From assembly GCF_014196205.1 (NCBI RefSeq), contig NZ_JACIDE010000031.1, positions 1 to 35,284 on the forward strand: a stretch of 35,284 nucleotides of DNA, given 5' to 3'. A program made the position numbers and the translations under genes. Of this stretch, positions 33,673 to 34,989 are shown piece after piece. Origin of the DNA: Anoxybacteroides voinovskiense. GTDB lineage: Bacteria; Bacillota; Bacilli; Bacillales; Anoxybacillaceae. A model generated the notes under the pieces. That model saw nothing but the letters and a program-made list of their open reading frames with translations, searched no databases and was not told where the DNA came from. The number at the start of each line of letters is the position of its first letter. The stretch's first letter is position 1.

Positions 33673-33770
33673 TCCGCAATAGCTCAGCGACGAGCAACGC
33701 ATCAGTGAACATGCTGCGAATTGCCTCGACGCATTCACCATCCTCGAAACGGCTAGTAGAGGAAGAGGCA
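33673..33770 (+). other. Chimeric tRNA-Asn 5' fragment plus 81-nt element, copy A
   Basis: 33673-33689 is an exact copy of the first 17 nt of tRNA-Asn (TCCGCAATAGCTCAGCG). From 33690 it departs from tRNA sequence into an 81-nt element (33690-33770) that recurs in copy B with 69 of 81 identical positions, no gaps, and an identical last 19 nt. GCTC (33682-33685) and GAGC (33692-33695) can re-form a D-arm-like hairpin across the junction. Inside, TGCCTC (33722-33727) can pair with GAGGCA (33765-33770). No known family recognised; strong transcription from P2 is expected. Confidence 0.7.
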
Positions 33771-33815
33771 GTAGGAATGAATTGGAAAAGCGGTTGTGTA
33801 TCAGGTTGTTCCTAT
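33771..33815 (+). repeat. Inverted repeat between copy A and tRNA-Asn
   Basis: GTAGGAA (33771-33777) pairs with TTCCTAT (33809-33815), including one G-U pair. It begins at the element end and finishes 6 nt before tRNA-Asn. The equivalent place in copy B has a different sequence with the same pairing. Confidence 0.55.
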
Positions 33816-33821
33816 ATTTAT

Positions 33822-33896
33822 TCCGCAATAGCTCAGCGGTAGAGCAACCGGCTGTTAACCGGTAGGTCGTAGGTTCGAATCCTACTTGCGGAGCCA
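33822..33896 (+). tRNA. tRNA-Asn (GTT)
   Basis: Cloverleaf with acceptor TCCGCAA/TTGCGGA, T-arm GGTTCGAATCC and encoded CCA; anticodon GTT at 33854-33856. Its 5' 17 nt are duplicated upstream in copy A. Confidence 0.97.
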
Positions 33897-33898
33897 TT

Positions 33899-33991
33899 GG
33901 AGAAGTACCCAAGTGGCTGAAGGGGACGGTTTGCTAAACCGTTAGGTCGTGGTTTCGCGGCGCGCGGGTTCAAATCCCGCCTTCTCCGCCA
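33899..33991 (+). tRNA. tRNA-Ser (GCT)
   Basis: Acceptor GGAGAAG/CTTCTCC, long variable arm, encoded CCA; anticodon GCT at 33933-33935. Confidence 0.97.
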
Positions 33992-34007
33992 CGTTGTGAT
34001 ATATTTT

Positions 34008-34079
34008 GGCCCGTTGGTCAAGTGGTTAAGACACCGCCCTTTCACGGCGGTAACACGGGTTCGAATCCCGTACGGGTCA
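34008..34079 (+). tRNA. tRNA-Glu (TTC)
   Basis: Acceptor GGCCCGT/ACGGGTC, T-arm GGTTCGAATCC; anticodon TTC in CCCTTTCACGG. CCA is not encoded. Confidence 0.96.
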
Positions 34080-34130
34080 TCAAAGTTGTGGGGGGATGGA
34101 AAATTACCGTCTCCCATTTTATTCGGCTAT

Positions 34131-34203
34131 GGAGGATTAGCTCAGCTGGGAGAGCACTTGCCTTACAAGCAAGGGGTCGGCGGTTCGATCCCGTCATCCT
34201 CCA
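34131..34203 (+). tRNA. tRNA-Val (TAC)
   Basis: Acceptor GGAGGAT/ATCCTCC; anticodon TAC at 34164-34166. CCA is not encoded. The preceding 51 nt hold only a weak G-rich/C-rich dyad. Confidence 0.96.
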
Positions 34204-34221
34204 TTGCTTCTGGATGTATAA

Positions 34222-34297
34222 GGTCCCGTAGTGTAGTGGTTAACATGCCTGCCTGTCACGCAGGAGATCGCGGGTTCGAGTCCCGTCGGGACCGCCA
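34222..34297 (+). tRNA. tRNA-Asp (GTC)
   Basis: Acceptor GGTCCCG/CGGGACC, encoded CCA; anticodon GTC at 34255-34257. Confidence 0.97.
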
Positions 34298-34309
34298 TAT
34301 ATAAATTGT

Positions 34310-34384
34310 TGGGGTATAGCCAAGCGGTAAGGCAACGGACTTTGACTCCGTGATGCGTTGGTTCGAATCCAGCTACCCCAGCCA
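34310..34384 (+). tRNA. tRNA-Gln (TTG)
   Basis: Acceptor TGGGGTA/TACCCCA, encoded CCA; anticodon TTG at 34342-34344. Confidence 0.97.
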
Positions 34385-34389
34385 TGAAT

Positions 34390-34462
34390 GAGCCATTAGC
34401 TCAGCAGGTAGAGCATCTGACTTTTAATCAGAGGGTCGGAGGTTCGAGTCCTCCATGGCTCA
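34390..34462 (+). tRNA. tRNA-Lys (TTT)
   Basis: Acceptor GAGCCAT/ATGGCTC; anticodon TTT at 34423-34425. CCA is not encoded. Confidence 0.97.
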
Positions 34463-34467
34463 CTTTT

Positions 34468-34549
34468 GCGGGTGTGGCGGAATTGGCAGACGCACCAGAC
34501 TTAGGATCTGGCGCCTCACGGCGTGGGGGTTCAAGTCCCTCCACCCGCA
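34468..34549 (+). tRNA. tRNA-Leu (TAG)
   Basis: Acceptor GCGGGTG/CACCCGC, long variable arm; anticodon TAG at 34502-34504. CCA is not encoded. Confidence 0.96.
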
Positions 34550-34557
34550 TAAATTAC

Positions 34558-34640
34558 GCGGTCGTGGCGGAATGGCAGACGCGCTAGGTTGAGGGCCTAG
34601 TGGGGGCAACCCCGTGGAGGTTCAAGTCCTCTCGGCCGCA
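34558..34640 (+). tRNA. tRNA-Leu (GAG)
   Basis: Acceptor GCGGTCG/CGGCCGC, long variable arm; anticodon GAG at 34591-34593. CCA is not encoded. By position after sprT it corresponds to B. subtilis trnS-leu2, the attachment site of ICEBs1. Here it is uninterrupted. Confidence 0.96.
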
Positions 34641-34649
34641 TTAAAATAC

Positions 34650-34678
34650 TTGCACTCAAAAAGAGTGTGTGGTAGAAT
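34650..34678 (+). promoter_or_regulatory. Possible internal promoter before tRNA-Arg
   Basis: TTGCAC (34650-34655), 17 bp, TAGAAT (34673-34678). It lies in the widest spacer of the tRNA array and could separately feed Arg-Pro-Gly and the rRNA genes. The perfect short dyad CACTC/GAGTG overlaps the spacer. Confidence 0.5.
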
Positions 34679-34697
34679 AAAAAATGCTGTTGTTTTT

Positions 34698-34774
34698 GCG
34701 CTCGTAGCTCAATTGGATAGAGCATCTGACTACGGATCAGAAGGTTAGGGGTTCGAATCCTCTCGAGCGCGCCA
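34698..34774 (+). tRNA. tRNA-Arg (ACG)
   Basis: Acceptor GCGCTCG/CGAGCGC, encoded CCA; anticodon ACG at 34732-34734. Confidence 0.97.
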
Positions 34775-34777
34775 TCT

Positions 34778-34854
34778 CGGGAAGTAGCTCAGCTTGGTAG
34801 AGCACATGGTTTGGGACCATGGGGTCGCAGGTTCGAATCCTGTCTTCCCGACCA
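34778..34854 (+). tRNA. tRNA-Pro (TGG)
   Basis: Acceptor CGGGAAG/CTTCCCG, encoded CCA; anticodon TGG at 34812-34814. Confidence 0.97.
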
Positions 34855-34877
34855 TCCCCTATAAAATCGCGCAACAC

Positions 34878-34989
34878 GCGGGTGTAGTTTAGTGGTAAAA
34901 CCTCAGCCACGAGCGATGCATCCGTGAAAAAGCGGCGAGTTGCCTCGACGCATCCATCATCTTCGAATCAGCTAGTAGAGGAAGAGGCA
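34878..34989 (+). other. Chimeric tRNA-Gly 5' fragment plus 81-nt element, copy B
   Basis: 34878-34908 is an exact copy of the first 31 nt of tRNA-Gly, up to the first base of the anticodon loop. The 81-nt element follows at 34909-34989, 69 of 81 identical to copy A. The junction again reads CTCAGC, one base, ACGAGC. CTC (34902-34904) can pair with GAG (34911-34913) across it. TGCCTC (34941-34946) and GAGGCA (34984-34989) are kept. It differs from copy A in the amount of tRNA retained (31 against 17 nt). Confidence 0.7.

Follow-up and report, generated by a model that had tools for sequence, protein, structure and literature searches.

A hairpin-bearing repeat of Bacillales found behind 5′ copies of tRNA genes

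Integrative elements use tRNA genes as attachment sites, the large ones landing at the 3′ ends of these genes, and a piece of a tRNA gene is also said to be part of a much smaller repeat, the tandem units of E. coli tyrT (rtT RNA), which reportedly carry a 3′ tRNA piece in one operon. Among small mobile sequences, the hallmarks of MITEs are terminal inverted repeats and a short target-site duplication, and those of the IS200/IS605 type are a lack of target duplication, a fixed short 5′ target, subterminal hairpins and a cognate Y1 transposase. In the parts of the literature covered here, BOX, RUP, bcr1 and REP are listed as interspersed hairpin repeats or MITEs (PMC3733652, PMC2267715), and the covered part of one survey describes two stem-loop families of Bacillus halodurans, Bhal-1 and Bhal-2, of 74 and 76 bp with 36 and 50 copies, and discards tRNA-related clusters (PMC2267715).

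The element reported here was found in a 35,284-nucleotide stretch of DNA from Anoxybacteroides voinovskiense (the window) and is a real, widespread hairpin repeat of Bacillales. It is apparently undescribed in the literature covered, since the consulted parts of work on tRNA-gene and spacer repeats, Bacillus repeats, Bacillaceae-1 RNA and tyrT, including PMC2864571, PMC2267715 and PMC3733652 and few subscription papers, hold no description of it. We call D the copied tRNA 5′ part to the left of the element, and unit the ensemble of D, element and tail. Like BOX, RUP, bcr1 and REP, as far as the covered parts of those sources go, the element is short, structured, multi-copy, apparently non-coding (judging from its length and tRNA context) and without a protein of its own; with variable presence added, these are the features of a non-autonomous interspersed repeat in the broad, BOX/REP-like sense. 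Unlike them, it is confined in the window's genome to tRNA arrays, mostly behind a copied tRNA 5′ part. Bhal-1 and Bhal-2, compared by their partly covered description rather than by sequence, are similar in size and come from a species that also carries the element, but their 36 and 50 copies stand against the 7 that our covariance model gives in one draft genome of H. halodurans. As in the tyrT repeats, tandem units of the element hold part of a tRNA gene beside an intact tRNA, but it is a 5′ piece, found with many isotypes and in many species, rather than the reported 3′ piece of a single operon. The units also share with tRNA-attached integrative elements the direct repeats of tRNA sequence and the intact tRNA at one end; unlike those elements, they are too short, at ~120–160 bp, to hold an integrase gene, their tails are not common to the different isotypes, and the site varies with the tRNA. 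Terminal inverted repeats of the MITE type were not seen by eye, the ends ACGAGC and GAGGCA being non-complementary, and the stem pairs positions 33–38 with 76–81, not the two ends. An AG at −4/−3 of the left junction, present in 129 of 138 copies, fits the fixed 5′ target of the IS200/IS605 type, and the stem of the element ends at its edge.

The element in the window and in its own genome

The end of the window is an array of 12 tRNA genes (33822–35108) directly before a 16S rRNA gene, and the features of its two units are as follows.

33614–33642, + strand: sigma-A type promoter TTGACA-17-TATAAT from a consensus scan (12 of 12 positions, a consensus match only)
33673–33689, + strand: truncated tRNA-Asn copy, 5′ nt 1–17 (D of copy A), identical to 33822–33838
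33690–33770, + strand: element copy A, 81 bp, stem 33722–33727/33765–33770 (family membership, covariation)
33771–33821, + strand: tail of the Asn unit, starting GTAG like the interrupted tRNA and diverged after that
33822–33896, + strand: intact tRNA-Asn(GUU) (ARAGORN and Rfam)
34878–34908, + strand: truncated tRNA-Gly(UCC) copy, 5′ nt 1–31 (D of copy B), identical to 35035–35065
34909–34989, + strand: element copy B, 81 bp, stem 34941–34946/34984–34989 (family membership, covariation)
34990–35034, + strand: tail of the Gly unit
35035–35108, + strand: intact tRNA-Gly(UCC) (ARAGORN and Rfam)

The original prediction, made from the letters of the window, described this arrangement correctly: copies A and B are identical at 69 of 81 bases without gaps and share their final 19 nt, A lies behind the first 17 nt of tRNA-Asn and B behind the first 31 nt of tRNA-Gly(UCC), and the complete tRNAs follow about 50 nt downstream (51 nt for Asn, 45 nt for Gly). 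The consensus promoter, matching at 12 of 12 positions, stands 30 nt before the Asn fragment, and the Asn unit is therefore probably transcribed together with the array; a consensus scan of the region finds 3 promoters against a shuffled mean of 2.2. It had also been claimed that no named family fits, and this held: there is no Rfam 15 match at the gathering threshold over A, B or the copies in four other arrays of the same genome, nor any at threshold over the element in the scanned loci of other genomes, so that a known RNA family was rejected. With E values up to 10 allowed over 33600–35130, only tpke11 touches copy B (34932–34951, minus strand, 14.3 bits against a gathering score of 43). 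Elsewhere in the window, at 14298–14437, there is a c-di-AMP riboswitch (ydaO/yuaA leader, RF00379, 97.6 bits). Bacillaceae-1 RNA (RF01690) occurs close to the element without overlapping it: in a genome of another family (G047) one copy lies 58 nt after the element (L212:1611–1677; one dispersed repeat, by eye), between the ends GTTCAAAAAG and CTTTTTGAAC, and among eight loci, including L209 of the same genome, L212 is the only one at which the threshold is reached.

The element is ~80 bp long, and to its stem is added an inner pair, 41–72. In 37 diverse copies, many of which were found with a stem-bearing model, the six stem pairs and pair 41–72 are formed in 99.2% of cells, and changes on both sides are seen at five of the seven pairs (four of the six stem pairs and one inner pair), one of the others being invariant and one varying on one side only. 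Cells changed on both sides number 48, against a shuffled mean of 12.8 and with none of 500 shuffles reaching that count, and further pair types number 8, below the 9.8 of shuffles. The stem versions GCCTC, GTCTC, GTTTC, GTCCC, GCTTC, GCACC and GCATC each occur with their complement, and the inner loop swaps strands, GAC(G/A)(C/G)A being opposite GAGGAA in 29 copies and GAG(G/A)AA opposite GA(C/A)G(C/A)A in 8. By eye, both halves of the element carry a common motif, CATCnnTGAATnnGCT. A self-contained multi-helix RNA was rejected: mutual information reveals no second helix in 73 pattern-selected copies, a set in which the stem hardly varies and the top pairs (54/65, 26/51 and 7/17) are non-complementary. 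Single-sequence folding of six copies is not clearly better than that of shuffled sequences (z from +0.28 to −1.47). Three shortened variants (L153, L168 and L172) keep the first ~32 nt and, by eye, have the second hairpin replaced by another.

The recurrence of copy B in its own 3.23-Mb genome is far beyond chance. A blastn search finds it at 20 places (E ≤ 0.01) on five contigs, all of them in tRNA arrays, with E = 1e-25 for the best non-self match and 1.9e-8 for the weakest. A covariance model, built from 73 copies (76 non-redundant ones minus four without a proper 5′ end, plus B), gives 22 strong matches in the whole genome (E ≤ 2.3e-14), and all 22 are spread over the same five arrays rather than lying in one duplicated tRNA block. 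One weak partial match falls outside tRNA arrays (C15:71922–71956, minus strand, 35 nt, E = 0.011). ARAGORN identifies 73 tRNA genes in the five arrays; a copy stands directly upstream of 16 of the 20 genes of eight isotypes, which were chosen because they have copies, and of 0 of the 53 others. D generally copies the next tRNA downstream, and its length depends on the tRNA: 31 nt for Gly(UCC), 17 for Asn, 24 for Thr, 14 for fMet, 11–12 for Phe, 17 for Lys, and 12–13 or 28 for Arg(UCU). Two first copies (on contigs C25 and C36) have no D, D has decayed in one Phe copy (C18), and the last two copies on C2 have no downstream tRNA because the contig ends there. A second, related type of element with a longer 5′ part, starting CACGNNYGAATARGC, is found by regular expression at six places on C25, C18 and C2; it stands at comparable tRNA positions, upstream of fMet, Thr and Arg, sometimes in tandem with the first type.

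Distribution across genomes and contexts

The covariance model matches 40 of 41 genomes of the window's family, with up to 52 copies per genome, and 136 of the 299 sampled genomes of the order (E ≤ 0.001); in a sample of 250 genomes of the class, members of the order included, 7 matched (E ≤ 1e-5), all seven in this same order. A fixed-pattern search of genome contigs returned 108 stretches, nearly all from Bacillaceae-type genera, the four labelled otherwise being one Bacteroidia MAG, two Pseudomonas ISL-84 and one Paenibacillus. The pattern prescribes 26 bases, so conservation inside those blocks is partly set by the selection; copies found without it show changing stem letters. In the Bacteroidia MAG (SKW94, L063), the element is identical to one of Anoxybacillus mongoliensis (L056) and has the same flanks, and its contig is therefore probably mis-binned. 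No phage match was found for the element, and plasmid matches are limited to three records, two from Anoxybacillus amylolyticus (one of 258,230 bases) and one from Geobacillus subterraneus.

In the window's family, the main niche of the element is behind 5′ copies of tRNA genes and upstream of intact tRNA genes. Among 138 copies in the named genomes of the contig search, 137 have a tRNA gene within 1500 bp downstream, the remaining one lying at a contig end, and in 111 of the 137 the distance is within 100 bp. All but two of these 137 tRNAs (135) belong to the eight isotypes plus Met. Tabulated as the original prediction had proposed, the flanking tRNAs reveal different isotypes at many sites, Gly(UCC) being the commonest with 83 of 138 copies, followed by Asn (22), Thr (10), Phe (8), Met (7), Arg (3), Lys (3) and Ile (1), and the Gly(UCC) site is occupied in many genera.

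The element is also found outside tRNA genes. In four genomes of other families, 40 of 104 copies were inspected (20 of 59, 10 of 15, 5 of 13 and 5 of 17, the best-scoring with two skipped), and by eye 28 of these 40 loci are in dispersed repeats and 12 behind tRNA 5′ parts; dispersed repeats account for 20 of 20 loci in G064, 4 of 10 in G109, 4 of 5 in G047 and 0 of 5 in G206. A dispersed repeat of G064 that contains GCCCGCGGAAAGCG (L181, L188 and others) exists with and without the element and has several insertion points. Two empty copies of this host repeat were found; compared with an empty copy, the element alone is cleanly inserted at L189, with no target-site duplication, and L176 and L185 are nearly clean, with a 4-base gap near the junction. 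In most other G064 copies, host hairpin sequence is partly missing after the first few bases that follow the element. In a Geobacillus-type genome (G025), five head-to-tail, element-like units of ~85 bp lie in a 16S-23S spacer (L133:5569–5994, minus strand) and run opposite to rRNA transcription, and weak model matches suggest similar arrays elsewhere in that genome and in another (G022). Copies in dispersed repeats and, reversed, in the spacer speak against a role limited to tRNA leaders.

These contexts also bear on plain decay, according to which a single tRNA block would have been duplicated and left the units as remains, without a separate element. Truncated tRNA copies do exist, but the same sequence is found at eight isotypes, at more than one position of the tRNA and also in repeats of other kinds, and its stem shows compensatory changes. 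The tRNA context of the 138 copies, with its several isotypes, together with the copies in dispersed repeats, refutes plain decay, which we consider highly improbable and which had been dismissed from the outset.

Junctions, spread and loss of the units

The explanation that we favor, at about even confidence, takes the element for a non-autonomous interspersed repeat of Bacillales with a hairpin; recombination would carry its units from one locus to another of the same isotype, multiply them and remove them. It would have begun with a few old entries of the element into a tRNA gene, or into a partial tandem copy of one, without a short target duplication of its own; that the founding insertion was of a folded single strand is a guess. 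Homologous recombination, with D serving as left arm and the intact tRNA as right arm, would then have carried the unit to further loci of the same isotype. This would explain why D is a copy of the local tRNA and why an intact tRNA lies downstream. Finally, as D repeats the start of the intact tRNA in direct orientation, units could be amplified in tandem, up to eight having been seen, or cleanly deleted.

Examination of D and the junctions took in the 111 of 138 copies with a tRNA within 100 nt. D is exact in 73 of these 111 copies (53 of 66 before Gly), ranges from 11 to 31 nt and tracks the species variants of its tRNA; in 56 of 66 Gly copies it ends at tRNA nt 31, the tails having diverged. 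By eye, junctions are clean in Thr, Asn, Lys and fMet copies. In single copies, tRNA sequence briefly resumes after the element, with CAACTGAC for Thr (L053), GGTAGAG for Lys, CAGTCGG for Phe, GTAG for Asn and GCCC for fMet, so that the element looks placed inside a truncated tRNA copy. When the first 8 bases of the tails were matched against the tRNA at every possible offset, with direct continuation as offset 0 and with small numbers apart from Gly and Asn, offset 0 ranked first of 44 for Thr(UGU), tied for first for Phe and ranked second of 44 for Asn, for which another offset outscores it; for Gly, offset 8 was best and offset 0 ranked fourth of 41, and the test failed for Thr(CGU) (rank 10 of 44) and fMet (rank 34 of 44). 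As a general rule, insertion within a truncated tRNA copy thus receives mixed support. One copy, L092 of Neobacillus fumarioli, is followed by a 3′ half of tRNA-Gly that can still be read, and an intact tRNA-Gly does not come immediately after it. We treat this as a lead to an ancestral insertion; a later deletion could give the same join. A long target duplication, in the form of a duplicated upstream spacer, was seen by eye in L196 and L197 and was rejected: the tail of the window's Asn unit is unlike its left flank.

The same borders could be read as those of a site-specific integrative unit, in which a recombinase would integrate the whole 120–160 bp into the tRNA 5′ part, with D and the intact tRNA as attachment sites. 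Direct repeats of 11–31 nt as borders, the intact tRNA downstream, the existence of tandem arrays and sites that can be empty all agree with this. However, tails differ between isotypes and some start with the tRNA's own next bases, which implies that the whole stretch is not one mobile sequence; in addition, the crossover point would differ for each tRNA, the element alone is cleanly inserted in a dispersed repeat at L189, and phage matches are nil and plasmid matches confined to the three records. We regard such a unit as unlikely.

Presence, absence and number of units accord with the gains and losses expected of a recombining repeat. The window's array was compared in five genomes of the genus, the window's included, after a search that covered seven, G012, with its differently ordered array, and G014 being left aside. 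The window has the Asn unit, G013 keeps a decayed version of it, and G010, G011 and G015 (three of five) lack it; the window, G010 and G013 have the Gly unit, and G011 and G015 (two of five) lack it, so that the empty sites it had seemed worth looking for do exist. Tandem units number eight at 155 bp in G187, and in the window's genome there are three before Thr (C25) and two before Gly. In the 16 units of this genome, tails are 0.49–1.00 identical within an isotype and have a mean identity of 0.53 and a maximum of 0.61 between isotypes (96 pairs), ranges that touch through Asn (0.49) and some Thr pairs (0.57–0.60); left flanks without tandem neighbors are 0.46–0.66 identical for Gly, Asn and Thr, and still alike for fMet (0.82) and Phe (0.74) pairs. 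For Gly and Thr, we infer that tails and flanks are as recombination would leave them; for fMet and Phe, array duplication would explain the pairs just as well. Spread among tRNA loci would thus be explained most simply by recombination through the tRNA direct repeat.

Recent transposition was rejected. Copies of the window's genome at different isotypes are on average 84% and at most 93% alike. Of the 50 copies that could be compared both with the same tRNA in another genome and with another tRNA in the same genome, 30 have their nearest neighbor in the former group and 18 in the latter, with 2 ties. Recent spread between isotypes therefore looks rare, the nearly identical Thr(CGU) and Thr(UGU) copies of A. 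rupiensis being an exception. The idea of a small mobile unit, put forward in the original prediction, is in this way largely supported by the several tRNAs and sites, presence and absence among species, tandem units and dispersed copies, whereas recent jumps between isotypes find little support; its alternative, a structured RNA built on tRNA halves, is hypothetical. Besides the lack of recent movement between isotypes in the window's genome and the mixed outcome of the offset comparison, two observations count against the reading that we favor. First, tails of the same isotype overlap the range of other isotypes, and the left flanks of fMet and Phe are alike where a drop is expected. Second, the Gly D, which mostly ends at nt 31 and is followed by a diverged tail, suggests one old event long kept; easy clean deletion should have removed this unit unless something retains it.

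A possible role at tRNA genes and wider meaning

What might retain it is a cis-acting RNA role, in which D and the element would form a leader module tuning transcription, folding or processing of the next tRNA; D would compete with the true 5′ strand for the tRNA 3′ half, and the element would decide the outcome or be bound by a protein. The best evidence for a retained role is that the Gly(UCC) site, with its 83 of 138 copies, is common to many genera and that in G109 this site carries the stem in its two versions, TGTCTC/GAGACA and TGCCTC/GAGGCA (L193–L195); this persistence is the main weakness of a reading as repeat and nothing else. The frequent exactness of D despite diverged tails and the 12/12 consensus promoter upstream of the Asn unit point in the same direction, as does computed single-sequence folding, in which D has 9.0 expected pairs with the tRNA body versus 1.5 for the true 5′ part in unit A, and 7.0 versus 5.5 in unit B, although any duplicated 5′ strand would compete in this way. 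Set against such a role are the copies that lie in dispersed repeats or, reversed, in a 16S-23S spacer instead of in tRNA leaders, the absence of units from species of the same genus, the variable length of D and the folding z-scores of the six copies. We hold a cis-acting role to be a tentative alternative, clearly less probable than the recombining repeat. A more specific proposal is that D and the element together make a tRNA-shaped riboregulator, in which D would pair with the 3′ half of the tRNA downstream and the transcript could fold either as the normal tRNA or as a tRNA shell with element and tail as an insert of ~150 nt. This we find doubtful; if true, it would let the cell adjust its supply of Gly-UCC, Asn, Thr, fMet, Phe, Lys and Arg-UCU tRNAs.

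Repeats of ~80 bp behind tRNA 5′ copies in many Bacillales would represent a new niche for small repeats. They raise two questions: why the window's genome has them at only about eight isotypes, and why the Gly site is occupied in genus after genus. A family of such elements would account for unusual gaps, and for pseudo-tRNA fragments, within tRNA arrays, and its units would offer a natural system for direct-repeat recombination beside essential genes.
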